Assembly: GCA_027459845.1 (NCBI GenBank) | Contig: DAIDGS010000036.1 | Location: 1 to 35,702, forward strand | DNA length: 35,702 bases | Direction: 5' to 3' | Source of the DNA: Vulcanimicrobiota bacterium | GTDB lineage: Bacteria; Vulcanimicrobiota; Vulcanimicrobiia; Vulcanimicrobiales; Vulcanimicrobiaceae | In this document: in pieces, positions 2,694 through 35,702 of the stretch | Position numbering within the stretch: position 1 is the first letter of the stretch | Layout: each line of letters begins with the position of its first letter | Made by a program: the position numbers and the translations under genes | Notes under the pieces: generated by a model | Told to the model about the DNA's origin: nothing | The model's input: the letters and a program-made list of their open reading frames with translations, nothing else | The model's database searches: none

Positions 2694-3062
2694 TTCCGCG
2701 TTGACCATCGGCATCCTATGGCGGCGCATGCGCCCGCTCGGTCGCCGATTGGGCGCGGCAGGCACCCGGGGTAAAAGCCCGAAGCCGTCTGTGCACCCCA
2801 CCACCCCATGGATCGAGAAGGAGACTCCTTGTTTTGCCTCGCCGCTCGCTCGGTCGCTCGCCGATGAACCGGGGGGGAATCGGGCGAACGCCGAATCGAC
2901 CGGACGACGCGATCGAGCGGCGGACGCCCGCAGGGTGGGCGCCCGGATGCCGGGGCGGATTGCGGTGAGTACGATGAGAGTTTTCTCGAGTGTCCACGGA
3001 TTCGTGTTGTCGCGGCGGTCGCGCCGGCTGCCGCGCGCGTCGCAATTGCAACCTCGCCTTTC
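2694..3062. other. Divergent intergenic region between the OstA-like gene and the glycan operon
   Basis: About 370 bases lie between the divergent starts. They should hold the promoters of both units, but no convincing -35/-10 pair can be read on either strand in this GC-rich sequence. A short perfect inverted repeat, AAGGA-GAC-TCCTT, at 2818-2830 is followed by GTTTT. A weaker stem (CGGG/CCCG) lies around 2765-2785. No conserved coding frame is evident; open frames here look like GC-driven shadows. Confidence 0.5.
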
Positions 3063-14374: not shown

Positions 14375-17300
14375 ATGAGCCGACTAAAGGTTGGCGGTCG
14401 AAGGCGCGCGATGACGCCGAGCCCGTGGTGGCTGCTGACGCTGGCGTTGCTGCCGCTTATTACCCTTTGGCTGCATTTTCGCGGCGAGATGGTGCTGGGT
14501 TGGGACAGCGTGCCACCGTTACGCCCCGATCTCTACATAGCACAGGCGTTTTCGAATTGGAATTGGGCGCGCGAGCTTGGGCAGCCGCACGTCCTCGATG
14601 GCCTCGCCGAGTTACCGCTCGGCATCGCATACTTTTTGCTTGCGCTTCCCTTCGGACTCGCCGTCGCACAAAAAGTCGTGCTCGTCGCGATATTCGTGCT
14701 GCCGGCGTTCGCAATGTCTTTCTGCGCGCGTCGTCTATTCCCACGCGCGCCGTGGCTCTGGTTTATCGCCGGTTGGTGTTACGCGCTGTCGCCGCTTCTC
14801 TTTGTGCGGTATTACATTCCGATCGTTCCGGTGCAGATCGCCTATGCGATGCTGCCGTTGCTGGTCAACGCGTGGGTCGATGTCGCACGGCGTGGCGGCG
14901 ATGCGCGTCGCCTCCTCGGACTAGCGTTAGCACAGTTCGCCTTGCTGCCGTCCTCGAGCAACGTGGCGTACTGGATCGTCCCGCAGGCGGCCGGCCTATT
15001 GCTCGCCGCCGCGATTGCCGTCGGCAAGCGCGACCAAGATGGAAATCGGAAGTGGTCCGGAATCGCACGTGGGATCGCGATCGTTGCTGCGATCAACGCA
15101 TTCTGGTTCGTTCCGCAGGCGCTGTTTGGCGCGGTCGAGGGTTCGACCTATGCCCATGAGTCGGTGCAAGCCGCTTACACTGCCGGCATTCGCAAGGACG
15201 TTGCCGCGAACTCGAGCGCCTCCTACACGATGCGCTTGACATCGCGGGCGATTGCCCACGTTGGTGACGCGAATGGTCCCTACTGGACCGACGCCGCGAT
15301 ATTTAGGAATCCGGTGTATGCCGCGACGCTATTTGTATGGATTGGACTAGCGCTCGTCGCGATCGCTCGGCGCCCGCGCGATCCGCGGCGAATCGGGCTC
15401 GGCCTGCTTTTGGTTCTCGCGCTGTTCATCATGAAGGGAACCGGTCCACCCCTGGCGGCGCTGCTCGCGTTGGCGTATCGCCTGCCGCTGCTGGGAACGG
15501 TCTTTCGCGACGGGTTCGATAAGCTCTTACCGATGGCAGCCTTTGCGATTGCGCTGCTGGCACCGCTTGCGCTCGCTCCCAGCTCGCGGCGCCGAGACTC
15601 AACCGGCGCCTGGGTCCTGGCCGGGTGTGCGCTGCTTTTAGCGTATCCGTACTGGACGGGACAGATGTTTATGGCGCGACCGGCCGGACCGTCGCTCGCG
15701 TCGATTCCGCCGAACGACGCCTATGCGATCGCGCGCGCGACCGACCGAAACAGTGCGCGAACGCTGTTCCTCCCACCCAGTGGGAATGCCATGCTGACGG
15801 CGACGAACTGGGGATACTTTGGCGAGAACCCCTTTATCTGGCTCGCTCGCGCTCCGCTGATCTCGACGCCGCTTTCGGTGATCAATCGGCCTCAAACCGA
15901 TGCCGTGACATCGGCGCTTTACAGGGCGGTCGAGCGACGCGACGTCGTCGCCTTTAGGTTGCTTGCACGCATTCTCCGTGTCGGATATGTGTTGGTAGCG
16001 CACGATGTCAACTTCGAATACTACGGCGGTCCGACGCCGCGCGCGATGGATGCATTTCTGGGCGAACTCGGCGACACTCGGGTCACGCAAGTTATCGGCC
16101 CGTATACGCTCTGGCGTCTTGCGTGGGTTCCGGATCGCAGCGTCGCGCTCGCACGGCGCCAGATCGTCGCATACGATGCGAGTTTTGCGGCGGCACTCAA
16201 CGTCGTCGGCGCGTGCGGTAGGTTTGCGCGGAGCGCGCTGGTTGCCGGATCGCAAGCAACCGGTGTCTGTACGTTGCGGCGCAACGTCATCCCCCCATCG
16301 GCCTGGATGCCGATGACGTTTCGGCTGCGCGATGGGTACCTGCGAGTACGCGCGAACCTCCGAACGCCGGCCGCGGCGGTGTGGGTCGGTCGCGATGCGT
16401 CGGCGGCGTCATTGGGGGGCGTGGTCGCCGGTACGACTCGAACCGCGGTTCCGCTCGTTCCGTGCCTGCGCTTTGCGTACGCGGCGTTTGCGCCGCGCGG
16501 CCCGACTCGGACGATCGCGATTCCCGCCGCGCCGGTCGGCGGCGGTGGGGTGGATGTCACGCTCCCCGCGTTGCGACCGGGCTTTCAAGACGTGCGCGTC
16601 CTCGCCAGCGTCGATCGCTCGACCGTAGCCGCCGAGGTCGTGGATGCAAACAGCGCGCAAGTGATGGCGCGCACGAAAGGCCTCGCGACCGGCAGTAATG
16701 GGATGACCTTCTATGCCCTCCCCGGTCGGACGTATCGGCTGCGGATTGCCGGCGCGGTGGCGTTTGGCAGTGCACGCGCGGATGTGTTGGGAGCCTCGGT
16801 TCGCGCGGTTCGGCGCAGCAAAATCGGGGCACTTCGGGCGCCCGCCGCGCCCGGCCAGACGTGTCCGGCTAGGTCGCGTGCAAACGCTTTTGCAACCCGG
16901 GATCGTGGTCTGGACGTGGCGCTGGCAATCGAGGGAAAGCATATTTTGGTGCGCACCTACGGCATCGAGCCTCCCTTTGACGTCGCCAAGATGCGTCTGC
17001 CACCCGGCACGAAATTGCTGCGCAATGGCAGCACGTTGATCGATCGTACGGCGATCGACACGACGTTTGCACCCGGGTTCACGGTTCGGCTGCAGGGGTA
17101 TCGGCCCACCGGTCCGGCACGCACCCTGCGCGTCACCGATTTGTCGAGCTCGGGGCCGGTACTCGTGACCGATCTCGATCCACGACGTGGACGAATGACG
17201 TTGCAGACAGGGATCAGCGATCAGTGGGTGCGCTTTCCGCTTCCCGAGCTGCGGCCGGGTCCGTATGCGCTCACCATAGCCAGCGGTGGACTCGTCGGTC

Positions 17301-17896
17301 AATACGGCGCTGCGGTGACCAACGTTGCCACCGACGGTGTCGCCGCGTCGCGGCGCAACGTGAGCGGTCCGAAGCTGGCGTTCGCATTCTACGCGCTTCC
17401 CGGGCAGCGCTATCAGTTATATATTTATACGGTTGTTTTGCCCGGACAAACAACTTTTGCGCTGCGCGTCTCGTCGATGACGTTGCAACCGATCCGGTCG
17501 ACCGGCCTCGCCCAGTTCACGTTGCCGCGCGTCGTCGCCACGGTCGATAGCGATCCCGATGCGGTATTGGTGAGCGGACGGCTTCGCCGTGGGCCCCTCG
17601 GCATGACGGGCAGCCACGTTTCGCAATATGCGAATCCCACCGCGTTGGTATTGCGAACGCAATACGATCCATTCTGGCTCGGGTTTCTCTTGAGTACCAG
17701 ACCGCCGTTCGTCATGCCGCTGCACCACGTCGTAGCCGACGGTTACGCCAATGCTTGGATCGTTCCAGCTATGACCGTAGGACGATTCACGGCATTCTAC
17801 CTACTCGACGCATTTGAATATCTCGGCTTGGCACTCGCCCTGGTTGCCCTGTTCGCCCTAATCGCGCGTTCGCGCAAGCGTGGTGCGCGGCTTTGA
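14375..17896 (+). CDS. Giant AftD-like GT-C membrane glycosyltransferase (1173 aa), copy A
   Basis: Helix 1 (about 17-36) is followed by HFRGEMVLGWDSVPPLRP with Asp44, then W.W..ELGQPH. This matches the first extracytoplasmic loop of AftD-type (DUF3367) arabinofuranosyltransferases, where the catalytic Asp lies. About eleven helices reach residue 420, including WCYALSPLLFVRYYIPIVPV, NAFWFVPQ and GTVFRDGFDKLLPMAAFA, comparable to the AftD FRN..K.D region. YPYWTGQMFMARP then opens a long beta-rich extracytoplasmic part with VLVAHDVNFEYYGG near 545. The end has QYDPFW, HHVVADGYANAWIVPA and one last helix, leaving a basic tail. Close paralog of the GT-C gene at 23727. The start could be ATG 14411, which has AAGG 7 bases upstream. 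It probably adds a sugar from a polyprenyl-phosphate donor; donor and acceptor are unknown. Confidence 0.82.
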   Translation: MSRLKVGGRRRAMTPSPWWLLTLALLPLITLWLHFRGEMVLGWDSVPPLRPDLYIAQAFSNWNWARELGQPHVLDGLAELPLGIAYFLLALPFGLAVAQKVVLVAIFVLPAFAMSFCARRLFPRAPWLWFIAGWCYALSPLLFVRYYIPIVPVQIAYAMLPLLVNAWVDVARRGGDARRLLGLALAQFALLPSSSNVAYWIVPQAAGLLLAAAIAVGKRDQDGNRKWSGIARGIAIVAAINAFWFVPQALFGAVEGSTYAHESVQAAYTAGIRKDVAANSSASYTMRLTSRAIAHVGDANGPYWTDAAIFRNPVYAATLFVWIGLALVAIARRPRDPRRIGLGLLLVLALFIMKGTGPPLAALLALAYRLPLLGTVFRDGFDKLLPMAAFAIALLAPLALAPSSRRRDSTGAWVLAGCALLLAYPYWTGQMFMARPAGPSLASIPPNDAYAIARATDRNSARTLFLPPSGNAMLTATNWGYFGENPFIWLARAPLISTPLSVINRPQTDAVTSALYRAVERRDVVAFRLLARILRVGYVLVAHDVNFEYYGGPTPRAMDAFLGELGDTRVTQVIGPYTLWRLAWVPDRSVALARRQIVAYDASFAAALNVVGACGRFARSALVAGSQATGVCTLRRNVIPPSAWMPMTFRLRDGYLRVRANLRTPAAAVWVGRDASAASLGGVVAGTTRTAVPLVPCLRFAYAAFAPRGPTRTIAIPAAPVGGGGVDVTLPALRPGFQDVRVLASVDRSTVAAEVVDANSAQVMARTKGLATGSNGMTFYALPGRTYRLRIAGAVAFGSARADVLGASVRAVRRSKIGALRAPAAPGQTCPARSRANAFATRDRGLDVALAIEGKHILVRTYGIEPPFDVAKMRLPPGTKLLRNGSTLIDRTAIDTTFAPGFTVRLQGYRPTGPARTLRVTDLSSSGPVLVTDLDPRRGRMTLQTGISDQWVRFPLPELRPGPYALTIASGGLVGQYGAAVTNVATDGVAASRRNVSGPKLAFAFYALPGQRYQLYIYTVVLPGQTTFALRVSSMTLQPIRSTGLAQFTLPRVVATVDSDPDAVLVSGRLRRGPLGMTGSHVSQYANPTALVLRTQYDPFWLGFLLSTRPPFVMPLHHVVADGYANAWIVPAMTVGRFTAFYLLDAFEYLGLALALVALFALIARSRKRGARL

Positions 17897-22585: not shown

Positions 22586-23722
22586 GTGCTTACGGCAGGC
22601 CCGCCGGCGCGGGCGCTCGTCGTCGCCGGCGCGTATTTTCCGGAAATCGGCGGAGGCGAGCGACTTAGCGTCATCCACGCGTGGTTGCTGCGCCGTTGCG
22701 GCTATGACGTGACGGTGCTGGTTCCTCGTCGTGGCACCGGCGGCGTCGATGCGTTGGGAACGTCGTATGCGGTGGCGTCGCCGCTCCGCCTCGCCAACTA
22801 CCGCGCCGTTCCGCCGCGAACCCTCGCGCAAGAACTCGAGACGCGGCAACCGGCGCTCGTATACTTCATCGGACCGCACCCGCAGGATTTTTACGGCGTC
22901 CGGATGGTGCAACGGCGAGGGATTCCGGTCGCCGCGCTCTACCACGCTGATTTTCGCGTCGATCGTGCGTCATCGCGCGCGATCACCGAGCTCTACGCGC
23001 GCATGGTTTCCCGTCGGCTGGACGCCGTCTGCACGACGACCGAGGGCTATCGCCAACGCTTGATCGCTCGTGGTGTCGATCCCAGACGCATCCACGACGT
23101 CGGCATGGGCGTCGATGCCGCGAGCTTCGCGCCGGGGTTGCCGCGCCGCGAACGCAGCGGAGCGATACTCTTTGTCGGCGGCATGGGCGTCAATCATACC
23201 TACAAGCGCTTCGATCTTCTGCTCGACGCTCTCGCCGCACTGCGGGCGCAGGGGCGCCGCTACACCTTGCGCGCGATCGGGGACGGCGAGAACCGTGCGC
23301 GCTTCGAACGTCAAGCCGAGTCGCTCGGCATCGGCGCGTCGGTAACGTTTACCGGGACGACCGACGATGCCGGCTTGCTGGCTGCGTATCGCGCCGCCGA
23401 CGTGCTCGTGCTCCCCTCGCCAAGTGAGGCCGAGGGTTACGGGATGGTGGTCTTGGAGGCCCTTGCCTGCGGCTGCCCGGTCGTCACCAGCGCGATTGCC
23501 GGTGCCGGCGAGGCGGTCAAGGCTTCCGGTTGCGGAGCGCTTTGGAAAGGGATCGAGGCATCCGATCTGGCGCGTGCGATCGACCAGGTCCTCACCGCGC
23601 CGACGCCGCGCGATCGGGTTGCGGAGGCGGCGCGCGAATACGTCCTGGCCTCGCATACCTGGGAGCGCGTCGGCGACCGCCTCTGCAGCGCCCTGCTCGC
23701 TGCACGCGGGCGCGTGGCGTAG
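22586..23722 (+). CDS. GT4 glycosyltransferase paired with GT-C copy B
   Basis: 378 residues from GTG 22586, chosen because AGAAAGAG lies just upstream and the fold begins at once (RALVVAGAYFPEIGGGERLS). ATG 22475 would add 37 residues of low-complexity sequence and overlap the divergent GT-C frame. The donor domain has ILFVGGMGVNHTYKRFDLLL, LRAIGDGENRARFE and a clear EX7E motif in SEAEGYGMVVLEALACGCPV. GT4 enzymes take a nucleotide sugar and extend a glycan in the cytosol. The stop lies four bases before the next gene, so the two form an operon, a mirror image of the GT-C/GT4 order at 14375-19053. Confidence 0.88.
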   Translation: MLTAGPPARALVVAGAYFPEIGGGERLSVIHAWLLRRCGYDVTVLVPRRGTGGVDALGTSYAVASPLRLANYRAVPPRTLAQELETRQPALVYFIGPHPQDFYGVRMVQRRGIPVAALYHADFRVDRASSRAITELYARMVSRRLDAVCTTTEGYRQRLIARGVDPRRIHDVGMGVDAASFAPGLPRRERSGAILFVGGMGVNHTYKRFDLLLDALAALRAQGRRYTLRAIGDGENRARFERQAESLGIGASVTFTGTTDDAGLLAAYRAADVLVLPSPSEAEGYGMVVLEALACGCPVVTSAIAGAGEAVKASGCGALWKGIEASDLARAIDQVLTAPTPRDRVAEAAREYVLASHTWERVGDRLCSALLAARGRVA

Positions 23723-23726
23723 CATC

Positions 23727-26700
23727 GTGCGCGCTCGGCGATTGAGCCCGCGGTGGCTGCTGCTCTTGGGACTCCTGCCGCCGTTGACCTTCGCAGCGCA
23801 CTTTCATGGGACCATGGTCTTGGGCTGGGACAGCGAGCCACCGCTTCGCCCGCTCGCGTACCTCCTGCAGTCGCTGTCGGCGTGGAAGTGGAATGCCTAT
23901 TTAGGCCAGCCGAACATCTTTCAGATCACGCAGGCACCACTGGCCGTCGTGTACCTCGCGCTCTCGAGACTGCTCGGCGTTGCGCTTGCGGAGAAGAGCC
24001 TACTCACGATCCTCTTCGTTCTGCCGGCCTTTACTGCGTACTACGCGGCTCGCCGGATCTTTCCCAACGACCGCTTTTTGCCGTTTGCCGCGGGATGGTG
24101 CTTCGCGCTCTGTCCGCTGCTATTCGTGCGCTATTACGTGCCGATCGTCACGGTTCAACTGGCCTACGCACTCCTGCCGCTGGCCGTTAATGCCTGGGTA
24201 AACCTCATGCACGGTGGTGCGCGCCCACGCTCGCTCCTGTGGATCGCGGGGGTCGAGCTCGCATTTCTTCCGTGCGCGAATAACCTGGCCTATTGGGTGG
24301 TCCCGCACGTTACTGCGATTGCCTTTGCGGGTCTGCTCCATCTTACGCGAAGCCATCGACCGCACCGCGCGCGCGCTTTTTGGCTGGGTATCGCGGTGCT
24401 GGTGGCGATCAACGCGTTTTGGCTCGTACCCCAAGTGCTCTTTGGTTTGGTTGCGGGATTGACGTTCGAACACGAAGCGATCAATCATGCCTATACGGTC
24501 GGCGTGAAGAAGGATGTTGCTCACGATGCCGGTCTCTCGTACACGCTGCGCATGTCGACCAGCGCACAAACCGGCGCGGGCGATCGCTATGGCCCGTACG
24601 TCACCTACGCACGTGCGTTGCAAAACGGCCTGATTGCGGCGCCGTATTTTCTTTGGATGCTGCTGGCGGCGGCGGCCTTGGCGCTTCGACCGCGCGACCG
24701 GCGCGTGGTCGTGCTCGGTGCTTTGCTCGCCTTCGCCCTCTATGTGATGAAGGGAGAATCGGCGCCGTTGGCATTCGGCCTAGCGTGGTTCTACCGAATC
24801 CCATTGCTCGGAACGATCTTCCGCGACGGTTACGATAAGCTGCTGCCGATGGCGGCGTTTGCCTTCGCCATGCTGCTTCCGGTTGCGGCCGAGGCGATCG
24901 GCCGTTTGACCCGTCGACCGCGAGCGTTGCGCTGGGCCCTCGTCGCGATCGTCCTCGCCATGGCTTTCCCTTACTGGACGGGGCAGATGTTCATGGCGCG
25001 CCCGAGCGGTCCGAATCTCGCGTCGATGCCTCCTGCGTCCGCCTTTGCGTTCGGTCGGCTTCTCGATCGCGTTCACTCACGCATCCTCTTCGCGCCAATC
25101 AGCGACAATCCGCAACTTCTCGCTACCGACTGGCATTTTTTCGGTCCCAACGTGTATGGCAGCATGACCGACGCCGACGTGATCTCGATGGCAGCCTCGA
25201 TCATGAATACCCCGGGAAGCGATCGCATTATGACCGCGCTTCATGCCGCGATCGACTCGGGCGACGTCGCGACCTTCGAGCAAGACGTGCGCGCGGCCGG
25301 GGTAGGGTATGTCTTCGTTGCGCACGATATGAATAGCGAGTACTATGGCGGCGAGACGGCTGCGAAAGTAGACGCGTTTCTGCGCGAGGTTCCCGGCACT
25401 CGCCAAGTTGCGCGGCGCGGCCCATACGTCTTGTGGAAGCTTCCCGGCGTTAGGCGCGTCGACCGGCACCTCCGACGCCTGCCGATTGCCACGTACGATA
25501 CGTCGTTTACGGCGGCACGGGCGCTGGTCTCGCGGTGCGGGAAGGGACGCTTTGCGCTCATCCCGCTCACGCAGGGGTCATGCACCATCGCGTTGAGCCC
25601 GGTCGCCCCGTCGTCGCAGCTTCCGGTCACCCCCGCGCGCGTGCGCGTTGGCAGAAATCACGTTCGCATCAGCCGCGCGACGGTTACGGGGCGTGCCGTA
25701 GAGACCCGCGCGTTGCCGGCCGGAATCACGGTTGTCGGCATCAGCGGGAGGATCGTGGGATCTACCGCACGCTATCTCACGCTCGTACCCTGTAAGCGCT
25801 ATCGCGTAGATTCGTACGCCGTAACGACCTACGCGGCGCCGATCGATCCAGCAGCGCTCGTGGGCGTCGACGGCGCGGCTCTCGTGCCCCTTCCTGCGAT
25901 GTCGAGCGGGCTTAACGTCGTAAAGATAGCGACGGCGCGCAGCGGCGTGGGAGCCGGCGTGGCGATCGTCGACGCCGTAACGCGCGAGCGCGTGGCTGCC
26001 CGCGAGCACCTCGCATATCCCTCGACGTTGCTGGCACTCGACGCGCTGCCCGGGCGCAGCTACGCCCTGCTGATCGGGAGCGCGGAGAACTTCGGCGTCG
26101 CACGGAGCTATCTGCGCAACCTTCGGATCGCGCATGCGCAGCTTCGCACACCCTTTGTTCTGCGCGCGCCGCGTGCCGGTGCGCAACCTTGTGCGGTCGA
26201 ACCGTCGCCGGCCGCCTTTGCCATCGCCGCCGACGTCGCGCGCGTGGGTGCGGTGGTGTCGCGGGGAGCGCTCGTTCTGCATCCGTACGCGGGTCGACCG
26301 ATGACGTCGATCGCGGTTCCCCTTCCGGCCGGCACGACGCTCGCCGCCATCGGAGGTAACGTCGTGGGGCGGCGAGCGCGCGACGTCGGGGTTCCAACCG
26401 GAGCGCGAGTGCGAGTCGACACGTATGCCGCGGTGGGCTCGACGCGGCGCATCCCCATCGACGCCGTCACAACCTCCAGCAACCTATCGGCGGTCAACCT
26501 CGATCGCGCCGCTGGGACGGTAGCGATGCGCGCCGATGGCCCGGATCAGTGGATGCGCTTCGTCGCGCCGTTGACGTGTCCTCACCGCTGTCGGCTCGAC
26601 CTTCGCCTGGGAACGCTGATCGGACGTGTTGGCCTTGCGGCGGTCGATCAGACCGATGGTTCGACGTTGACCGCACGACTCAAGGTTCGCTCGCAGGGAC

Positions 26701-27242
26701 TCTCGCTGCTCCTACCCCACCTTGCCGACCAGCCGATCGGGCTCTACGTGCATTCGATGCCGCTTCCAAGCCCGACCCCGCTTCCGGGCGCGACGGCGGC
26801 CCCCGCATCCCCAAGCGACCTGCAGATCGCGGCGATGACGCTTACGCCGCTGCGGCGGACCGGGGCGGCATGGGTCGCGGTGCCCCGCGTGCGCAGCGCT
26901 CTGCCGACCGAGCGGGGTGCGATTACCGTGAGCGCGCTCGCGGTACGACCTCCTCCGCTTCGCGGGCGCACCTTGCGCCCATCATCGCAACCAAGCGCGG
27001 TGGTATTGGATACGCAGTTCGATCCATTTTGGACGACGCTCATCTTTCCGTCGTCGGGCGGTGTGTATTTCCCGCAACATGTTGTGGCCAACGCGTATCA
27101 AAATGCGTGGATAGTACCGGCCGCCATGCAAGGAACGGTGATCACATTTTATCTCAGTAACGTGCTCGCTGCATCCGGGCTGCTGGTCGCCTTGATCGCA
27201 CTAGCCGTGCTGGCGCGCGCGAGCCTGCGCCGCAATTCTTAG
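23727..27242 (+). CDS. Giant AftD-like GT-C membrane glycosyltransferase (1171 aa), copy B
   Basis: The GTG start gives RARRLSPRWLLLL, leading straight into helix 1. HFHGTMVLGWDSEPPLRP carries Asp35, the proposed catalytic acid, followed by LGQPN. WCFALCPLLFVRYYVPIVTV, NAFWLVPQ, GTIFRDGYDKLLPMAAFA and FPYWTGQMFMARP are nearly identical to the same stretches of copy A at 14375. The extracytoplasmic region has FVAHDMNSEYYGG, several Ser/Pro/Thr-rich links and a Cys module (CPHRC near residue 953), then QFDPFW, HVVANAYQNAWIVPA and a final helix. It follows a GT4 gene by four bases. It probably uses a polyprenyl-phosphate sugar outside the membrane, as AftD does; the exact sugar cannot be read. 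Duplication with copy A is clear at the protein level. Confidence 0.82.
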   Translation: MRARRLSPRWLLLLGLLPPLTFAAHFHGTMVLGWDSEPPLRPLAYLLQSLSAWKWNAYLGQPNIFQITQAPLAVVYLALSRLLGVALAEKSLLTILFVLPAFTAYYAARRIFPNDRFLPFAAGWCFALCPLLFVRYYVPIVTVQLAYALLPLAVNAWVNLMHGGARPRSLLWIAGVELAFLPCANNLAYWVVPHVTAIAFAGLLHLTRSHRPHRARAFWLGIAVLVAINAFWLVPQVLFGLVAGLTFEHEAINHAYTVGVKKDVAHDAGLSYTLRMSTSAQTGAGDRYGPYVTYARALQNGLIAAPYFLWMLLAAAALALRPRDRRVVVLGALLAFALYVMKGESAPLAFGLAWFYRIPLLGTIFRDGYDKLLPMAAFAFAMLLPVAAEAIGRLTRRPRALRWALVAIVLAMAFPYWTGQMFMARPSGPNLASMPPASAFAFGRLLDRVHSRILFAPISDNPQLLATDWHFFGPNVYGSMTDADVISMAASIMNTPGSDRIMTALHAAIDSGDVATFEQDVRAAGVGYVFVAHDMNSEYYGGETAAKVDAFLREVPGTRQVARRGPYVLWKLPGVRRVDRHLRRLPIATYDTSFTAARALVSRCGKGRFALIPLTQGSCTIALSPVAPSSQLPVTPARVRVGRNHVRISRATVTGRAVETRALPAGITVVGISGRIVGSTARYLTLVPCKRYRVDSYAVTTYAAPIDPAALVGVDGAALVPLPAMSSGLNVVKIATARSGVGAGVAIVDAVTRERVAAREHLAYPSTLLALDALPGRSYALLIGSAENFGVARSYLRNLRIAHAQLRTPFVLRAPRAGAQPCAVEPSPAAFAIAADVARVGAVVSRGALVLHPYAGRPMTSIAVPLPAGTTLAAIGGNVVGRRARDVGVPTGARVRVDTYAAVGSTRRIPIDAVTTSSNLSAVNLDRAAGTVAMRADGPDQWMRFVAPLTCPHRCRLDLRLGTLIGRVGLAAVDQTDGSTLTARLKVRSQGLSLLLPHLADQPIGLYVHSMPLPSPTPLPGATAAPASPSDLQIAAMTLTPLRRTGAAWVAVPRVRSALPTERGAITVSALAVRPPPLRGRTLRPSSQPSAVVLDTQFDPFWTTLIFPSSGGVYFPQHVVANAYQNAWIVPAAMQGTVITFYLSNVLAASGLLVALIALAVLARASLRRNS

Positions 27243-28686: not shown

Positions 28687-28884
28687 ATGGACGATAGACA
28701 CGTCGACGTCCCCGGGGCAGTACCTGTCGAGCAGGTGTTGCGTAGCGACCCGCTCTACCGGCTGCTGGGTGGCGCGCGGCTGGCCACGCCGTGGGTGCTG
28801 GGGGTCGTCATCGGGCTGATCGTCGTGGTCGCGATCGTACTCGGCCCGTCCGCCGATTCGCACTTCATCTACACCGACTTCTAA
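28687..28884 (+). CDS. DUF5989-like small membrane protein
   Basis: 65 residues: a polar N-terminus (DDRHVDVPGAVPVEQVL), a short amphipathic stretch (DPLYRLLGG), one membrane helix (TPWVLGVVIGLIVVVAIVLG) and the tail SADSHFIYTDF. The single helix followed by a terminal FIYT.F closely resembles DUF5989 proteins, tiny single-helix proteins that as I recall sit beside SGNH and MBOAT genes, exactly as here. Their function is unknown; a role as a small subunit of the acyltransferase complex is inference. The N-terminus is somewhat longer and more acidic than I recall for the family. The next gene starts two bases after the stop. Confidence 0.7.
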   Translation: MDDRHVDVPGAVPVEQVLRSDPLYRLLGGARLATPWVLGVVIGLIVVVAIVLGPSADSHFIYTDF

Positions 28885-28886
28885 GC

Positions 28887-29885
28887 GTGCGCTTTCTGCG
28901 ATTTCTCGGCACGGTCGCGGTCGCGACGCTTCTGACATTGGCGGCCGCCGACGCGATCGCGCGCGCCGCCTTTCCGCACCTATTGCGTTTGGAGCGCGAC
29001 TTTTCGGCCACCTACCTGCGTCGGGTGCTGAGCGCCGATCGCAACCGCCGGCCGATCGTCGTGCTCGGCGACTCGGCGCTCTGGGGGTACGACATCCACG
29101 CCGATCAAGTCGCAGCCTCGATCCTCATGCGCAGGGGCTGGCCGATCGAGAATCTCGCGTACGAGGGTGGAAGCACCGCCAACACCTACGCGATGCTGCG
29201 CGTGCTGCTGCACGCCGGCGTACGGCCGCGCTTGCTCGTCTTTAACGTCAACCTCAAGGAGTTCAGCGCCGGCGACAGCGCGTATCGCACGCTGCATCCG
29301 ACGGTGGAGCGGCTCGTGTGGCCGCTACTGACGCCAGCCGAGCGCGCGTTGCTGGTTCCGCACGTCAAGCAGACGCTCGATGCCAAGATCGACCGCGCGC
29401 TCGGCAACGTGTGGTTTCTTTACGGTATTCGTTCCGATCTGCGCGACAAGCTCTTCGGTCACACCGACATGGCGCATGCCATCCGCGCCTGGACGAACGG
29501 ACTTTCCGGCGAGCGTGCGCGACTGGCCGTTGCAACGGCGCCGACCGCCGATCGGTACTTGGGTACCTACGATCTCGCTCCGCTCACGCGATCCAACGTC
29601 GAGGTCGTCTTCTTGCGCAAGATCGTGAGCGTCGTCGAGCGCCGGCATCTGCCCGCAATCGCGATACTGACGCCTACAAACCACACCCTGCTGCACGAGT
29701 ATATCGACAGCCCGGCCTACCAGGGCCAACTCGCCTACGTGAGTGCAATCCTGCGTCGTGCGGGTATTCGCGTGCTCGACTATGATGCGAACTTTCCGGC
29801 GCGAGACTTCATCGACAACGACCATCTGACGCCGGCTGGAAACGCCACGTTGGCCGCGATGTTGGAACGCGAGCTGCCGCGATGA
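28887..29885 (+). CDS. Membrane-anchored SGNH-hydrolase-like protein (AlgJ/DltD-like role)
   Basis: 332 residues from GTG 28887. A single N-terminal helix (RFLRFLGTVAVATLLTLAAA) would anchor it outside the inner membrane. IVVLGDSALWGYDIHADQV carries the block I GDS with Ser63. LLVFNVNLKEFS is the strand with block III-like Asn. FIDNDHLTPAGN near the C-terminus has the Asp-His pair (Asp310 or 312, His313). SGNH proteins beside an MBOAT usually accept the acyl group and pass it to a glycan (AlgJ, AlgX, PatB), though some are esterases. It lies between the DUF5989-like gene and the MBOAT gene and overlaps the latter's start in an ATGA. Confidence 0.88.
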   Translation: MRFLRFLGTVAVATLLTLAAADAIARAAFPHLLRLERDFSATYLRRVLSADRNRRPIVVLGDSALWGYDIHADQVAASILMRRGWPIENLAYEGGSTANTYAMLRVLLHAGVRPRLLVFNVNLKEFSAGDSAYRTLHPTVERLVWPLLTPAERALLVPHVKQTLDAKIDRALGNVWFLYGIRSDLRDKLFGHTDMAHAIRAWTNGLSGERARLAVATAPTADRYLGTYDLAPLTRSNVEVVFLRKIVSVVERRHLPAIAILTPTNHTLLHEYIDSPAYQGQLAYVSAILRRAGIRVLDYDANFPARDFIDNDHLTPAGNATLAAMLERELPR

Positions 29886-31093
29886 TTTTCAACACCTGGA
29901 CGTTTGGCTGCTTTGCGTTGATCGCGCTGGTTATCTATTGGGGACTGATTCCGCAACGCTATCGCCCGCACTATCTCGTCGCGGTCGGATGCATCTTCTA
30001 CGCGTGGGGAGTGCCCGCGTACCTGACCCTGATCGTCTCACTGGCCGTCATCACGTTTGTCATCGGACGCTTGATGCTCCGCGACGGGGCGTCGCCGGGG
30101 CGCCGAAAGCTACTGCTCACGATCGGCGTCGTGCTCATCACCGGCGTGCTGGTGTTCTTCAAGTACACGAAGTTCTTCGCCACCACCGTCAACCAGGTGG
30201 CGCGTCACGACATCCTGCCGATTCCGCAAATTTTGGTCCCGCTTGCGATCTCGTTTTTTACCTTCGAGTTCGTGCACGTCTTGGTGGACGTGTATCTGGG
30301 GAAGATCGTCGAGCTCGACGGCCTCGACTTTGCGACGTTTGCGATGTTTTTCCCAACGCTGGTGGCCGGTCCGATCAAGCGCTACCAGAGCTTCGCGCCG
30401 CAAGTGCGCCATATCGAGCTTCCCAGCGATCGCGAACTGGCGCTCAACCTCTATCGCATCGTGATCGGATTGGCCAAGAAGTTGATCTTGGCCGACTCGG
30501 CTACCGTATTGACCGGACCGCTGACGGCGCCGGGGGCGTTTCCATACGGGCGGCTCGACTTTTGGGTCGCGATGCTGGCATACACCGTGAAGATATACTT
30601 CGACTTCAGTGGATACTCGGACATTGCAATTGGCGTCGCCGGCCTGCTTGGGTTGCGGATTCCGGAAAACTTCGACCGGCCGTACTGGGCTACCAACGCA
30701 TCGGTCTTCTGGCGGCGCTGGCATATGTCGCTCTCGACCTGGATCCGCGACTACATCTTCATTCCGCTGGGTGGAAGCCGTCGGCCGCCGCTGATCACGC
30801 TGCTCAATCTGTTGGTCGCGATGGCGCTGGCCGGGTTGTGGCATGGGGCCGCCTGGACGTTCGTGATCTGGGGTATCTGGCAAGGTTTTGGACTCATGGT
30901 GCATCGAATCTGGTCGCAGTTCGTCGTCGTGCACGTGCGTGCGCTCGCTCGGCCGAACGTCGCCGTTCACGTACTCTCGGTAGCGTTGACGTTCGCTTTC
31001 GTCGTGGTCGGATGGGTGCTCTTCGCGGCATCGTCGTGGAACGCGGCGATGATCGCGCTCCACTCGGCGTTCATCGGAGTGGCGAGTAACTGA
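29882..31093 (+). CDS. AlgI-family MBOAT O-acyltransferase
   Basis: 403 residues, about ten helices. MIFNTWTFGCFALIALVIYW matches the AlgI N-terminus, then VGCIFYAWGVPAYLTLIV, FFKYTKFF, AISFFTFEFVHVLVDVYLGK, FPTLVAGPIKRYQ, YFDFSGYSDIAIG and ASVFWRRWHMSLSTWIRDYI, all hallmark MBOAT segments. GLWHGAAWTF holds the proposed catalytic His321; His281 is in the WRRWH motif. AlgI-type proteins pass acyl (usually acetyl) groups from a cytosolic donor to extracytoplasmic SGNH partners. It is shorter than AlgI (about 500), nearer in length to DltB-like members, and seems to lack the last helix or two. It overlaps the SGNH stop (ATGA). Confidence 0.93.
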   Translation: MIFNTWTFGCFALIALVIYWGLIPQRYRPHYLVAVGCIFYAWGVPAYLTLIVSLAVITFVIGRLMLRDGASPGRRKLLLTIGVVLITGVLVFFKYTKFFATTVNQVARHDILPIPQILVPLAISFFTFEFVHVLVDVYLGKIVELDGLDFATFAMFFPTLVAGPIKRYQSFAPQVRHIELPSDRELALNLYRIVIGLAKKLILADSATVLTGPLTAPGAFPYGRLDFWVAMLAYTVKIYFDFSGYSDIAIGVAGLLGLRIPENFDRPYWATNASVFWRRWHMSLSTWIRDYIFIPLGGSRRPPLITLLNLLVAMALAGLWHGAAWTFVIWGIWQGFGLMVHRIWSQFVVVHVRALARPNVAVHVLSVALTFAFVVVGWVLFAASSWNAAMIALHSAFIGVASN

Positions 31094-31099
31094 GGAAGG
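31091..31099 (+). promoter_or_regulatory. Strong ribosome binding site for the small secreted protein
   Basis: GAGGAAGGG, six bases before ATG 31106, begins inside the MBOAT stop codon. It is the strongest such site in the operon and suggests high expression of the following gene. Confidence 0.6.
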
Positions 31100-31105
31100 G
31101 ACATC

Positions 31106-31579
31106 ATGAAGCCAGTCGTTGCCTGTTTTGCCATCGCCGCCGCGCTGCTCGCGGCACCCGCGCTTGCCGCGCAGGTTCGCCCGCTGCAAGGGAACGTCAT
31201 CATGGCGAAGTCGACCCCCGCTGCAGCGCTCTACGTCTGGAACGCCACGCCGTACGTCACCCAGTTGGTCGGCGACAAACTGCTGGGGGATCCGGGCATG
31301 CGCGCGATCGAGGCGACCGCCTTGAAGGCGCTGGTCGCGAAGGCCAAGGGCGTGCATGCAACCGAGCTGAGCATTCACGTACTGTACGAGAAGACCGGTG
31401 CCGTGAGTCCGGTCTACGGCACGCCGACGTTCATGGGCATGGAGAAGGTCGCGACGCTGCGTGCCACGCGTAAGCGCCTGCTTGCATCGGGAGCGTCGTG
31501 GGTCGACGCCGTGGCGGCCGGTACGACGCCGCCCGGCTTGACCGTCGAGGTCACCGGCAAACTGCCGCCGCCGCAGTAG
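31106..31579 (+). CDS. Small secreted protein of unknown function within the acyl-transfer operon
   Basis: 157 residues. A typical signal peptide (KPVVACFAIAAALLAAPALA) ends at AQ, around residue 22. The mature part (VIMAKSTPAAALYVWNATPY, ELSIHVLYEKTGAVSPVYGT) looks like a compact alpha/beta domain with no cysteine and a Pro-rich end (KLPPPQ). I do not recognise a family. It has the best ribosome site in the operon and sits between the MBOAT and the NHL-SGNH array, so it may be an abundant accessory or acceptor protein; that is inference. Confidence 0.8.
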   Translation: MKPVVACFAIAAALLAAPALAAQVRPLQGNVIMAKSTPAAALYVWNATPYVTQLVGDKLLGDPGMRAIEATALKALVAKAKGVHATELSIHVLYEKTGAVSPVYGTPTFMGMEKVATLRATRKRLLASGASWVDAVAAGTTPPGLTVEVTGKLPPPQ

Positions 31580-31582
31580 CGC

Positions 31583-33376
31583 GTGCTTCGCGTCCTGCTT
31601 CTGCTCGCGGTGGTTGCCGCTGCCGTTCCGGCGGGGGCGGCGCGGGCTTCGCTGCCCGACATGCCGACCGTCACCACGCTCGCGGGCGATGGCCGACCAG
31701 GCATCGTCGACGGTCCCGGAGTGCGCGCGCGCTTCGAAGGCCCCCAGGGAATCGCCTACGATGCGCGGGGTGATCTCTACGTCGCCGACACGCCCGCCCA
31801 GCGCATTCGGCGCGTCGATCCCCGCGGGAACGTCACGACGATTGCCGGCGGCGGGCCGGCCGCGCTGTTCGGCGCCGGCGTTCCGGGCGGCTATCGCAAC
31901 GGTCCGGCGCTCCAGGCGCGCTTCGACGATCCGACCGACGTCGCGGTTGCGCCGGACGGCGCGATCTACGTCGCCGACTCGCTCAATCACTGCATTCGCG
32001 TGATCCGCAACGGAATCGTCACGACCTTCGTCGGCGCGCCCAACCGCGTGGGCGGAGTCGATGGGGCGCGTGCGGTCGCGTCGTTCACGATGCCGCGCAG
32101 CTTGGCGTTCGGCGCGCGCGGTACGCTCTACGTCGCCGATCCGCCCAACGGCGTGCGCGCGGTCGCACCGAACGGCACGGTGACGACGATCCACGATCCC
32201 AACTTTCAGGGTGCGTGGGCGGTCGCAACCTACCACTCCGCACGCGTCGATCAACTCATCGTCGCGTCCCCGATGCTCATCTCGCTCTACGACCTTCGGA
32301 GCGGAAAGAACGCCGGCGGCATGTTCACCACCAACGACGCGAAGTCGTGGCCGCGCGAGGGACGTGCTTTCGTCGGTCCGGCCGCGTCGGTCGCACCCTT
32401 GAGCGCGACCCAACTGGTCTATGCCGACGACCTGTTCTCGACGGTGCGGCTGGTGCAGTTCCGGCCGCCCGAGCCGTGGCAGTTCACGCGGGCGCTGAGC
32501 GCGCCGCCGCTGCTCAATGCCGGCGCGCGCGGCGGCGGATTCCGCGACGGTCCGGGCGGCCAAGCGCTGTACGATCAGCCGATGGGCGTCGCGGTCGCAC
32601 CGGATGGAAGCATTGCGGTGGCCGACACCGGCAATCGCCGCATTCGCCTGCTCTCGCCGTTCGACCGGCGAACCTACGAAACCGACGGGGCGCGCCTTCC
32701 GAACGCGCCCGACCCGAGGGAGTTTCGCGTCGCGATCGTCGGGAACTCCTTGATCTGGACGGGCGAACCGTGGCATCGTTCGATCGGCGGCATCGTCGAG
32801 GATCGGCTGTGCGCCCAGCGCCCGGCCGCAACGCCCTGCAACGTCAAGGTCTATCCGTTGCGCGTCAGCGGCGAGTCGTCGGCCGCCGCCGCCTCGTACA
32901 TGCAGAGCTATCTGACCGACGGCTTGGTCAATGCGGTGGTCTTTTTGGTTTCGACGCCAGGCCAACTCGATGCGACCACCGTCGATCCGGCGTTTGCCGG
33001 ATCGCTGACGCCGCTGCTGGCCGGATTGGATGCGAAGATGGCGGCCAGCCACACCGACTTATTAGCGGTGCTGATGCCCGGCGCGTACGAGATGCCCAAC
33101 GAAACGTCGTATCTCAAGCTGACGCCGACGATCGGCCCGCGCGATCCGGCGCAGGTCGCGCGCGAGTACGCGGCCGAGCTGACCGCCGTGCAGGCATCGC
33201 ATGCCCCGTATCTCGACCTCTGGCCGCTGTTCTTCGGCAACGACGATCAAGCGACGTTCCAGCCGCTCTTTCGCGTGTGGGATCATCATCTCACCGACTT
33301 CGGCAACGCGCTGGTCGGAGACGCGATCGCGCAGCGCCTCATTCCCCTGTACGCCGAGGCGCATGCCCGCCACTGA
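31583..33376 (+). CDS. Secreted NHL beta-propeller fused to SGNH domain, copy 1
   Basis: 597 residues from GTG 31583, three bases past the previous stop. A signal peptide (LRVLLLLAVVAAAVPAGAA) leads into a beta-propeller at about 28-365 with clear NHL repeats: GIAYDARGDLYVADTPAQRI, DVAVAPDGAIYVADSLNHCI, SLAFGARGTLYVADPPNGV and GVAVAPDGSIAVADTGNRRI; blades between 205 and 305 are degenerate. The SGNH domain (about 380-597) begins FRVAIVGNSLIWTG, with the usual GDS changed to GNS (Ser389). It ends VWDHHLTDFGNALVGDAI, with Asp567 and His569 as likely catalytic partners. NHL propellers bind proteins or glycans; SGNH domains beside MBOATs transfer or remove acyl groups. The fusion is unusual, and its target is unknown. 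Confidence 0.85.
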   Translation: MLRVLLLLAVVAAAVPAGAARASLPDMPTVTTLAGDGRPGIVDGPGVRARFEGPQGIAYDARGDLYVADTPAQRIRRVDPRGNVTTIAGGGPAALFGAGVPGGYRNGPALQARFDDPTDVAVAPDGAIYVADSLNHCIRVIRNGIVTTFVGAPNRVGGVDGARAVASFTMPRSLAFGARGTLYVADPPNGVRAVAPNGTVTTIHDPNFQGAWAVATYHSARVDQLIVASPMLISLYDLRSGKNAGGMFTTNDAKSWPREGRAFVGPAASVAPLSATQLVYADDLFSTVRLVQFRPPEPWQFTRALSAPPLLNAGARGGGFRDGPGGQALYDQPMGVAVAPDGSIAVADTGNRRIRLLSPFDRRTYETDGARLPNAPDPREFRVAIVGNSLIWTGEPWHRSIGGIVEDRLCAQRPAATPCNVKVYPLRVSGESSAAAASYMQSYLTDGLVNAVVFLVSTPGQLDATTVDPAFAGSLTPLLAGLDAKMAASHTDLLAVLMPGAYEMPNETSYLKLTPTIGPRDPAQVAREYAAELTAVQASHAPYLDLWPLFFGNDDQATFQPLFRVWDHHLTDFGNALVGDAIAQRLIPLYAEAHARH

Positions 33377-35147
33377 CGCGCACCGGCGCCGCCCGCTCGC
33401 GCGCGGTGGGATGCTGGCGGCCGTCGTCGCGCTCGCGCTGAGCGCCGGTGCGGCCGCGGCCGGTCCGCTCCCCGACCGGCCGGCGGTGACGACGCTGGCC
33501 GGCAGCGGCGCGCCCGGCATCGCCGACGGACCGGCCGCGACCGCGACGTTTTTAGGACCGCAAGGGCTGGCCTACGATGCCAAGGGCGATCTCTACGTCG
33601 CCGACACCCCGGCGCAGCGCATTCGGATGATCGATCGGCGCGGCATCGTCACGACCGTCGCCGGTTCGGGTGTGCTGACGCTCTTTGGGGCCGGCGTCGG
33701 TGGCGGCTATCGCAACGGACCAGCGCTTCAGGCGCGCTTTAACGAACCGACCGGCGTGGCGGTGGCGCCGGACGGAACGGTCTACGTCGCCGATCTGCGC
33801 AACCGCTGCATTCGCGCGATTCACGACGGCATCGTCACGACCGTTGCCGGCAGCCCGCAGCGCGTCGGAGGGGCCGACGGTGCCCTCGCGCAGGCATCCT
33901 TTACCAATCCACGCAGTATCGCCGTCGACGGGCAGGGGACGCTGTGGGTAGCCGATCCGCCTGACGGCGTGCGGCGCATCGCGCACGGAGTGGTTTCGAC
34001 CCTGCCGGTCGCCGCGTTCGACCGCGCGCGCGCGGTTGCGGTCTATGGCGGAACGCTCTACGTCGCGACGCCGCGCGTGGTGTGGGCCTACGACATCGCT
34101 CGGCGCAAGATCGTCGATGGAATCGCGACGTTGCTGCGCGAGCGCTACCCTCCGCTCGCCAATCCGGTCGAAATGAAGCTGATCGGTCCGGCCGTCGCCG
34201 TTGCCGGCATCGCGCCATCGCAGTTCGTCTATGCCGACGATCTCTATTCGACCGTCACGTTGGTGCAGTACCGCAAGGCCCGCACGATCGGCGCGCCGCC
34301 GCTGCTCGATGCCGGCGCGATCGGCGGAGGATTCCGCAGCGGCGTCGACGCGCGTTTCGCTCAGCCGATGGGGATTGCGCTCGCACCCAGCGGGGCGATC
34401 GCGGTGGCCGATACCGGCAATCGCCGCATTCGGCTGATCGGGCCGTTCGATCGCACCTCGTACGAAGCCGACGTTCACCTTCCGACCGCTCCCAATCCGC
34501 ACGTCTATCGGATCGCGATCGTCGGCGATTCGTACGTATGGGACGGCGTCAGCGCACAGGAGTCGCTGGGCGGCGTGGTCCGCGCGCGGCTGTGCGCACG
34601 CCTCGCGCGCCATCCCTGCAACGTTGAGATCATCCCGATACGCTTCGACGGCGCGCTCTTTACCGACACCGCCTCGGAGGTCGATCAGTTTTTGAGCGAC
34701 GGTCTAGTCAACGAGGTGGTGTTGATGGCGACCTCGTTCAGTTTCGCGCCGCGCGACGGCGATCCGGCGCGGCGGATCGCGGCGATGGCTGCAACGCTGC
34801 GCGCGCTGCGCGCGAAGACCCGCGCAAGCCATACGCGACTGGTCGTGGCCCTCTTCCCCGACGCCTTCGACATGCCGGACGAGACGACGTTCGGCAAGCT
34901 GGTGAACGGGCCGAACTACGATCCCGGAACCACGCTGCGCCACTACCGGGCGACGTTGGCGCAGGTTCGATCCTCCGGCGTCGACGCGATCGATCTCTGG
35001 CCGGCGTTTTTCGCCAACGACGCACGCCCCGAGTACCGGACGCTCTTCGGGGCGTTCGACGATCACTTCACCGCGCACGGCAACGCGCTCTTCGGCGACG
35101 CGGTCGCTGCCGATGCGATCCGCCACGGCTTCGGTACACGGCCGTGA
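33363..35147 (+). CDS. Secreted NHL beta-propeller fused to SGNH domain, copy 2
   Basis: 594 residues from ATG 33363, overlapping copy 1 by 14 bases; ATG 33411 would give a shorter signal peptide. A basic N-terminus (HRRRPLARGG) and hydrophobic core (MLAAVVALALSAGAAAAG) form the export signal. NHL repeats lie at about 45-360: GLAYDAKGDLYVADTPAQRI, GVAVAPDGTVYVADLRNRCI, SIAVDGQGTLWVADPPDGV and GIALAPSGAIAVADTGNRRI. The SGNH domain starts YRIAIVGDSYVWDG, with the standard GDS (Ser390), and ends AFDDHFTAHGNALFGDAV (Asp566 or 567, His568). Closely paralogous to copy 1 over the whole length, with conserved segments such as QFVYADDLYSTVTLVQYR. Likely periplasmic or surface acyl-ester enzyme of the MBOAT system. 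Confidence 0.86.
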   Translation: MPATDAHRRRPLARGGMLAAVVALALSAGAAAAGPLPDRPAVTTLAGSGAPGIADGPAATATFLGPQGLAYDAKGDLYVADTPAQRIRMIDRRGIVTTVAGSGVLTLFGAGVGGGYRNGPALQARFNEPTGVAVAPDGTVYVADLRNRCIRAIHDGIVTTVAGSPQRVGGADGALAQASFTNPRSIAVDGQGTLWVADPPDGVRRIAHGVVSTLPVAAFDRARAVAVYGGTLYVATPRVVWAYDIARRKIVDGIATLLRERYPPLANPVEMKLIGPAVAVAGIAPSQFVYADDLYSTVTLVQYRKARTIGAPPLLDAGAIGGGFRSGVDARFAQPMGIALAPSGAIAVADTGNRRIRLIGPFDRTSYEADVHLPTAPNPHVYRIAIVGDSYVWDGVSAQESLGGVVRARLCARLARHPCNVEIIPIRFDGALFTDTASEVDQFLSDGLVNEVVLMATSFSFAPRDGDPARRIAAMAATLRALRAKTRASHTRLVVALFPDAFDMPDETTFGKLVNGPNYDPGTTLRHYRATLAQVRSSGVDAIDLWPAFFANDARPEYRTLFGAFDDHFTAHGNALFGDAVAADAIRHGFGTRP

Positions 35148-35702
35148 ACGCATCGATGCGCGCCGGCCTCTGCGTCGCGCTGACACTTGGTGCGATTGCC
35201 GGTGCGAGCCGGGGCGCATCGGCGATCGCGCTGCAGAAACTGACCAGCGAGCCGACCGTGACCACCTTCGCCGGATCCGGGCGTCCCGGGATTGCCGATG
35301 GTCCGGCCGCGCAGGCCGAGTTCATGGGGCCGGAGGGCATCGCCTACGACAAGTACGGCGACCTGTACGTCGCCGATACACCCGCGCAGCGCATCCGGAT
35401 GGTCGATCCGCACGGAAACGTGACGACGGTTGCGGGGTCGGGCGCGGTGACGCTGTTCGGTGCCGGCGTCGGCGGCGGCTACCGCAACGGGCCGGCCTTG
35501 CAGGCGCAGTTCAACGCGCCGACCGGCGTTGCGATCGGCCCCAAGGGAACCATCTACGTCGCCGACCTGCGCAATCGGTGCATCCGCGAGATCCGTAACG
35601 GCATCGTCTCGACGCTCGCCGGCGATCCGAGCAAGGACGGCGACGTCGACGGGCCCATCGCGGTCGCGACGTTCAGCAGCCCGCGCGGTGTTGCCGTCGA
35701 TG
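35144..35702 (+). CDS. Secreted NHL beta-propeller protein, copy 3 (partial, runs off right edge)
   Basis: GTG 35144 overlaps the copy 2 stop (GTGA). 186 residues are visible. The signal peptide is RAGLCVALTLGAIAGASRGA. NHL repeats follow: GIAYDKYGDLYVADTPAQRI, GVAIGPKGTIYVADLRNRCI and the start of a third. The spacing and wording match copies 1 and 2, for example AVTLFGAGVGGGYRNGPALQ, so an SGNH domain is expected beyond the edge but is not seen. It shows the array has at least three members and may continue. Confidence 0.85.
   Translation, partial: MNASMRAGLCVALTLGAIAGASRGASAIALQKLTSEPTVTTFAGSGRPGIADGPAAQAEFMGPEGIAYDKYGDLYVADTPAQRIRMVDPHGNVTTVAGSGAVTLFGAGVGGGYRNGPALQAQFNAPTGVAIGPKGTIYVADLRNRCIREIRNGIVSTLAGDPSKDGDVDGPIAVATFSSPRGVAVD

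Follow-up and report, generated by a model that had tools for sequence, protein, structure and literature searches.

A predicted O-acylation locus in Vulcanimicrobiota combines a separate DltX-like microprotein with tandem NHL propeller-SGNH proteins

The last 7 kb of a 35,702-nucleotide stretch of Vulcanimicrobiota DNA (contig DAIDGS010000036.1; the whole stretch is referred to as the window) probably encode an MBOAT-SGNH-type system for the O-acylation of an envelope polymer, in which the acyl shuttle is split off from the MBOAT and secreted NHL propeller-SGNH fusions would act as AlgX-like terminal transferases. Judged from sequence alone, the three components of this broad kind, an MBOAT, an SGNH partner, and an acyl-tyrosine shuttle motif, are all present. 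The parts are of known kinds; their combination was not found described in the literature. In particular, the literature search found no paper that connects NHL repeats to SGNH/MBOAT acylation, in line with the statement of an earlier note on this DNA that NHL propellers are not known from glycan O-acylation systems.

RESULTS

Organization of the locus

All genes of the locus are on the + strand. The first one (28687 to 28884, from translation) specifies a 65-aa membrane microprotein of the DltX-like acyl-shuttle type, with one transmembrane helix and the hexapeptide FIYTDF (FxYxxF; 28864 to 28881) at its C-terminal end. It is followed by a 332-aa SGNH protein (28887 to 29885), assigned a putative DltD/AlgJ-like role and considered anchored on the basis of an N-terminal hydrophobic segment, by a 403-aa MBOAT (29882 to 31093; PF03062, E 2e-26), and by a 157-aa secreted protein with a signal-peptide-like start (31106 to 31579). 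The fusions come next. Copy 1, of 597 aa, has a signal peptide and an intact triad (31583 to 33376; SGNH domain, 32705 to 33376), copy 2 has 594 aa (33363 to 35147; SGNH domain, 34488 to 35147), and of copy 3 the NHL propeller part is present, truncated by the contig end (35144 to 35702). Copy 2 starts 14 nt before copy 1 ends, and the start of copy 3 overlaps the stop of copy 2. A second contig of the same genome, C54, holds one more complete fusion copy and one C-terminal fragment, which is probably the rest of copy 3. Thus, the gene positions and strand given in the earlier note were all borne out, and so was its tandem array of at least three fusions (two complete, the third cut), to which the C54 copy is added; the 157-aa gene between the MBOAT and copy 1 was absent from it. 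Polysaccharide glycosyltransferases and a MurJ-like flippase surround the locus on the same contig. A reading as anti-phage defence was rejected, as PADLOC gave no match.

Shuttle motif of the microprotein

The FIYTDF motif had been missed previously. Its F, Y, and F are invariant among homologues of the microprotein, whose profile matched 12 of 149 genomes of the phylum. Fourteen of the 15 microproteins found in the phylum adjoin a short MBOAT, and the 15th sits in a decayed locus. Conversely, all 10 short MBOATs whose upstream DNA is intact have an FxYxxF microprotein upstream, and the microprotein upstream of an 11th short MBOAT carries FYYGPQF. The long MBOATs of relatives end in [VI]xYxxF in cis (10 of 10). 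A predicted shuttle motif therefore accompanies every checkable neighbouring MBOAT, in cis if the MBOAT is long and on a separate microprotein if it is short. For PatA and DltX, experiments have shown that the acyl group is carried by the tyrosine of this motif (PMC12148441), and by analogy the tyrosine of FIYTDF is proposed to be the acyl carrier here. PatA-PatB is likewise an MBOAT-SGNH pair with an acyl-tyrosine shuttle, and PatA resembles the long MBOATs of relatives in having the motif in cis. However, the Pat system has no microprotein, no propeller, and one SGNH transferase.

The earlier assignment of the small protein to DUF5989 did not hold. PF19451 gave no match at E values up to 10, and BLASTP against a true DUF5989 protein found nothing. 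The likeness is limited to a small transmembrane protein with an FIYTxF end, so that the C-terminus is better described as a DltX/DUF5989-type FIYxxF. PF19451 does match a protein of the same phylum in another locus (L115; 57 bits), which adjoins a carbamoyltransferase and an AlgX-like SGNH protein; no MBOAT was recognised in that stretch.

The MBOAT core and its neighbour

The sole MBOAT found in the genome is the one in the window. It is DltB-like over its full length, a feature not noticed earlier, with 199.9 bits to TIGR04091 (the equivalog cut-off of 375 is not reached) and PDB matches to DltB at 3.7e-35 (8jem) and 8.2e-35 (6bug). In the anchored SGNH protein, S63, D310, and H313 are invariant in 11 homologues. 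Together with the microprotein, these parts resemble Dlt (DltX-DltB-DltD), which has a separate C-terminal FxYxxF microprotein, a short motif-less DltB-like MBOAT, and an anchored SGNH protein. It is nevertheless most improbable that the core represents a genuine Dlt system adding D-alanine. First, no DltA above cut-off was found in the genome, which is 94% complete; the best score was 54 bits compared to a cut-off of 559.85, with generic AMP-binding-like matches only. Second, the MBOAT falls far below the DltB equivalog cut-off. Third, the anchored SGNH protein is nearest to DUF1574 and not to a DltD family. Finally, unlike Dlt, the locus lies in polysaccharide gene surroundings, glycosyltransferases among them, and has extra secreted propeller-SGNH proteins and the 157-aa partner. 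The latter carries a conserved motif, YxxTGAVSPVYGTxTFxGxE, and is a neighbour in most related loci, and its family had no match in Pfam, NCBIfam, or PDB. It resembles AlgF in gene position only and has no detectable relation to a solved structure.

Fold and triad of the NHL-SGNH fusions

That an NHL propeller is joined to an SGNH domain, as the earlier note had proposed, was confirmed by profiles and by a domain model. NHL repeats (PF01436) scored 82 to 85 bits in copies 1 and 2 (cut-off, 20), and the SGNH part of copy 2 passed ALGX (PF16822) with 29.8 bits (cut-off, 26.5). When a profile of the 33-member SGNH family was compared with PDB, AlgX and AlgJ ranked first (8.6e-8, 1.3e-5, and 2.4e-5). 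The full-length model of copy 2 had a pLDDT of 57, and because its fold search returned propellers only, including NHL propellers, the SGNH domain was modelled separately. This domain model, from two sequences, had a pTM of 0.77, and its 27 best PDB matches were almost all GDSL/SGNH enzymes; an SGNH fold is thus predicted after the propeller, with the domain modelled alone. Ser390 and His568 of copy 2 had been named correctly as catalytic residues, and D566 is added as the third member of the triad, the serine being in block I and the Asp and His in block V. Among 50 homologues, Ser and His were kept jointly in 43, lost jointly in 7, and never lost singly. Copy 2 also has E507, and the block III position is Thr in copies 1 and 2 and Asn in the C54 copy and in about half of the homologues. 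The missing Asn of copies 1 and 2 speaks against the preferred reading; AlgJ likewise has no block III Asn. The SGNH fold and triad are therefore supported by profile, predicted fold, and conservation.

Some array members are catalytically dead through loss of the triad, which had also gone unnoticed. For instance, the likely SGNH half of copy 3 on C54 has neither the Ser nor the DxH. Such members are probably retained as non-catalytic binding or assembly subunits.

Transfer or hydrolysis by the fusions

Several features point to the AlgI-AlgJ-AlgF-AlgX system, which also has an MBOAT, an anchored SGNH protein, and a small secreted protein. AlgX is a secreted SGNH protein with a second, presumably binding domain, and the fusions match AlgX and AlgJ in sequence and in the spacing of the DxH motif (PMC4148444). 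There are also clear differences. AlgX and AlgJ are circularly permuted, with DxH before Ser (for AlgJ, see PMC4148444), whereas the fusions have Ser before Asp-His. The CBM of AlgX is C-terminal, whereas the propeller that replaces it precedes the SGNH domain. Unlike the alginate system, the window has several fusion copies and a shuttle motif in trans, its MBOAT ending without a motif of its own, in contrast to AlgI and the long MBOATs of relatives.

Alternatively, the core might acylate the polymer and the NHL-SGNH proteins might be secreted esterases, trimming or recycling acyl groups in the way that Ape1 works next to PatAB. In fold searches, the SGNH domain matched mostly GDSL esterases best (PatB ranked 24th), the fusions bear signal peptides and not an anchor, and Ape1 itself, encoded in a pat operon, is an SGNH esterase to which a carbohydrate-binding module is appended (PMC12148441). 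However, the sequence profile favours AlgX and AlgJ, which are transferase components, the fusions have DxH and not DxxH, and several dead copies have been kept, which is easier to explain if they are complex subunits. We therefore regard an esterase role as possible but doubtful, and prefer terminal transfer over hydrolysis as the putative activity of the fusions.

Conservation across genomes

The combination recurs in about 20 related genomes. In 16 of the 18 genomes having both, an MBOAT is located at most 7 kb from a fusion, compared to 0.48 genomes expected by chance and a maximum of 5 in 200,000 simulations. Furthermore, a locus from another family of the class (L097) has the same order of microprotein, SGNH, MBOAT, 157-aa, fusion, and fusion genes. 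The recurrence of the domain order beside MBOAT genes elsewhere, and with it the earlier reading as an acylation-type locus built from an MBOAT core plus NHL-SGNH fusions, thus finds support in a conserved association. Some fusions do occur without a nearby MBOAT. One genome (G028) has three such loci (C10, C78, and C137) and another (G060) has one, no MBOAT being present in the stretches read, which means that the fusions can stand apart from the core. The G028 arrays would fit the idea of NHL-SGNH proteins as secreted hydrolases unrelated to an acylation core and placed beside it by chance, but the 16 genomes, the overlaps between stop and start codons of neighbouring window genes, and the identical order in L097 make this explanation extremely unlikely. 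In a further genome (G062), whose contig is short, core and 157-aa gene are present but no fusion was found. Searching 72,556 plasmids gave no match, and a scan of named genomes gave only two relatives, both NHL-only.

DISCUSSION

In the pathway that we consider probable, the DltB-like MBOAT would use a cytoplasmic donor, probably acyl-CoA, to load an acyl group onto the tyrosine of the microprotein FIYTDF. The acyl-tyrosine would hand the group to the catalytic serine of an SGNH protein on the external side of the membrane. The DltD/AlgJ-like partner would be the anchored SGNH protein, with the secreted NHL-SGNH fusions as terminal transferases like AlgX and the propeller holding the acceptor. 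The 157-aa protein, in its AlgF-like position, may couple the two SGNH classes. The most likely acceptor is a polysaccharide made by the glycosyltransferases encoded on this contig. It is unlikely that the propeller instead holds a protein or glycoprotein, secreted or at the surface, with the path otherwise the same. Some of the solved NHL propellers that the model matched bind RNA or protein, and a family profile search of the window's proteins detected no carbohydrate-binding family, but the locus lies among glycosyltransferases and a MurJ-like flippase, and glycans or teichoic acids are the substrates of the MBOAT-SGNH pairs that PMC12148441 names.

Two aspects of the predicted polysaccharide-acylating locus are new. 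First, a DltX-like microprotein occurs outside Dlt. In the current account, non-Dlt MBOAT-SGNH systems have no such microprotein, the motif being part of their MBOAT (PMC12148441). Here, one bacterial lineage has both states, the short MBOAT with a microprotein and the long MBOAT with a cis motif, and the one substitutes for the other. The shuttle model can therefore be tested by comparison, and the locus offers a natural split system to dissect. Second, the propeller-SGNH proteins form arrays with recurrent, retained dead copies. They represent an accessory class that pairs a domain of the acyl-transfer type with a putative binding domain that is not a CBM, and the recurrent loss of catalysis with the protein kept raises the question of non-catalytic partners in polymer acylation. 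More speculatively, and in our view with rather little likelihood, one MBOAT/microprotein core might feed several propeller-SGNH enzymes and pseudoenzymes in a multi-acceptor complex, the shuttle peptide being a shared free membrane carrier, with dead copies presenting acceptors and live ones transferring. If so, acylation would be modular here, whereas the known systems each have a single MBOAT and a single acceptor polymer. As the earlier note suggested, the array could give several acceptor specificities, and the propellers may hold a glycan or protein. The fusion copies of the window arose by a recent, lineage-specific expansion. Many copies in other genomes are instead old, with orthologues from one genome to the next, and differentiated roles therefore fit better there.

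Gene run and extent of the fusion array

From position 28687 on, the genes of the window are tightly packed and all on the + strand. First come the microprotein (28687-28884) and the anchored SGNH protein (28887-29885), whose gene is overlapped for 4 nt by that of the MBOAT (29882-31093). Next is a secreted protein of 157 aa (31106-31579), and behind it lie NHL-SGNH copies 1 (31583-33376) and 2 (33363-35147). Copy 3 begins at 35144 and runs off the window end. All three copies have hydrophobic, signal-peptide-like N termini, and in each of them the NHL repeat scored well over the cut-off. The genome (2.72 Mb) is split into 205 contigs, of which C36 makes up the whole window. Another contig, C54, opens inside a fusion gene and then carries one more complete copy; if C54 follows C36, four or more fusions make up the array and the gap is about 40 residues. 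The C-terminal part at the start of C54 (L005:1-991, +), in which the triad Ser and the DxH are replaced (VGDRLG and SVPQLT), probably belongs to window copy 3. In the fusion tree, the window copies formed a single clade (support, 100/100) and are a recent local expansion. In other genomes, the copies are orthologous from genome to genome.

The fusions contain a real SGNH domain

The earlier note had placed an SGNH fold after the propeller, and three lines of evidence support this. First, copy 2 passed the Pfam ALGX cut-off, as did 24 of 33 homologous domains individually, and a PDB search with a profile of these 33 put AlgX (8.6e-8 and 1.3e-5) and AlgJ (2.4e-5) on top. Second, the best 27 PDB matches of a domain model built from two window sequences (pTM 0.77) were nearly all SGNH/GDSL enzymes, PatB included. 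Third, Ser390 and His568 (copy 2 numbering) were both present in 43 of 50 full-length fusions and both absent in the other 7, with neither ever lost alone, as predicted for an active-site pair. Asp566 was substituted in 2 of the 43. Besides the triad, Glu507 (36/39) and Ser401 (38/39) were near-invariant in the fusion alignment.

The seven inactive fusions are spread over separate parts of the tree. They include a third array member common to G069 and G070 with a relative in G068, a pair from two different genera (G002 and G027), and single fusions in G028 and G096. Their retention across species suggests a noncatalytic role.

Conserved association with MBOAT genes

The fusion SGNH domain was found in 19 of 99 genomes of the family and, outside it, only in G118, from another family of the class; two more matches in the phylum were generic AlgX-like proteins. 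MBOAT genes occurred in 18 of the 19 fusion-bearing genomes compared to 31 of the 80 remaining family genomes. In 16 of these 18, an MBOAT lay within 7 kb of a fusion, compared to 0.48 expected under random placement and never more than 5 in 200,000 simulations, with the limit chosen after the distances were known, some links hidden by contig breaks, and related genomes not independent. The G118 locus (L097), from outside the family, has the exact window order: microprotein, SGNH, MBOAT (64% identical), 157-aa protein, and two fusions. The 157-aa protein, which belongs to no known family, was present in most such loci.

Two arrangements of the shuttle motif

The microprotein, which matched nothing in Pfam or NCBIfam, ends in FIYTDF. 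Work on PatA and DltX showed that, between MBOAT and SGNH, the acyl group travels on the Tyr of a C-terminal FxYxxF; according to the same paper, a DltX-like microprotein is missing from all but Dlt systems, and the MBOAT itself bears the motif in the others (PMC12148441). Both arrangements occurred in the related loci. Long MBOATs (∼470 to 516 aa; L041, L042, L043, L045, L049, L050, L056, L057, L102, and L104, the last a fragment) carried a C-terminal motif in 10 of 10 cases (e.g., VIYKAF, VVYRAF, and IVYKGF), with V or I at the first F position, a departure from strict FxYxxF. Short MBOATs (∼396 to 409 aa; the window, L044, L046, L051, L097, L101, L105, L106, L111, and L112) had no motif, and the microprotein directly upstream ended in FIYTDF or FFYGNF; the L110 microprotein is a variant ending in FYYGPQF. 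A microprotein profile search of 149 phylum genomes found 15 sites in 12 genomes. A short MBOAT adjoined 14 of them, including those in G060 and G062, and the 15th was a decayed locus where no MBOAT was found. In G061, a decayed core (L126:5641-6808, +) retains the microprotein and a truncated anchored SGNH gene, with no MBOAT found.

A true DUF5989 protein in G103, of the same phylum (L115:7388-7786, −; 57 bits), ends in FIYTLF. Its neighbors are an AlgX-like SGNH protein, two GDSL proteins, and a carbamoyltransferase, and no MBOAT was recognized in this stretch. DUF5989 proteins in general may shuttle acyl or other groups. Many genomes of the family also have MBOAT frames of ∼800 to 940 aa (e.g., L114:3619-6285, −, and L052:13626-15986, −) with a large N-terminal part without a Pfam match and C termini FIYFRF or YVYFKF; these resemble another acylation system built on a single chain.

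Relation to known acylation systems

Part by part, the locus resembles AlgI-AlgJ-AlgF-AlgX: an MBOAT, an anchored SGNH protein, a small secreted protein, and a secreted SGNH protein with a second domain. AlgF joins AlgJ and AlgX (PMC10641220), and AlgX has a carbohydrate-binding module (PMC4148444). However, this is not an Alg system, given its unpermuted SGNH order, a propeller as second domain, and a shuttle in trans. A Dlt system was also rejected: the MBOAT matches DltB along its length but falls below the DltB equivalog cut-off, and no DltA scored over the cut-off in the genome. For the acyl donor, acyl-CoA is the simplest guess. The window MBOAT keeps an LWHG motif, which we take to contain the conserved MBOAT histidine. 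We take the locus as a variant of the MBOAT-SGNH kind, distinct from Alg and Dlt. Our search, covering mostly open-access literature and few subscription journals or preprints, found no paper that connects NHL repeats to acylation by SGNH or MBOAT proteins.

The fold matches and the precedent of Ape1 allow the fusions to be esterases that remove acyl groups. Sequence affinity and the dead copies instead favor fusions that would form part of a transfer complex.

Probable acceptor and neighboring genes

The remainder of the window encodes a MurJ-like flippase and many glycosyltransferases, which makes an envelope polysaccharide the most likely acceptor. Two related giant membrane proteins of ∼1,170 to 1,290 aa without a Pfam match (14375-17896, +, and 23367-27242, +) may be GT-C glycosyltransferases that have large extracytoplasmic portions; a third protein (8997-12599, −) is comparable in size and kind. 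The product of 873-3560 (−), also without a Pfam match, has relatives in L041, L052, and L054, where they adjoin the gene for MurJ, and its sequence suggests an outer-membrane protein of the LPS-transport type.
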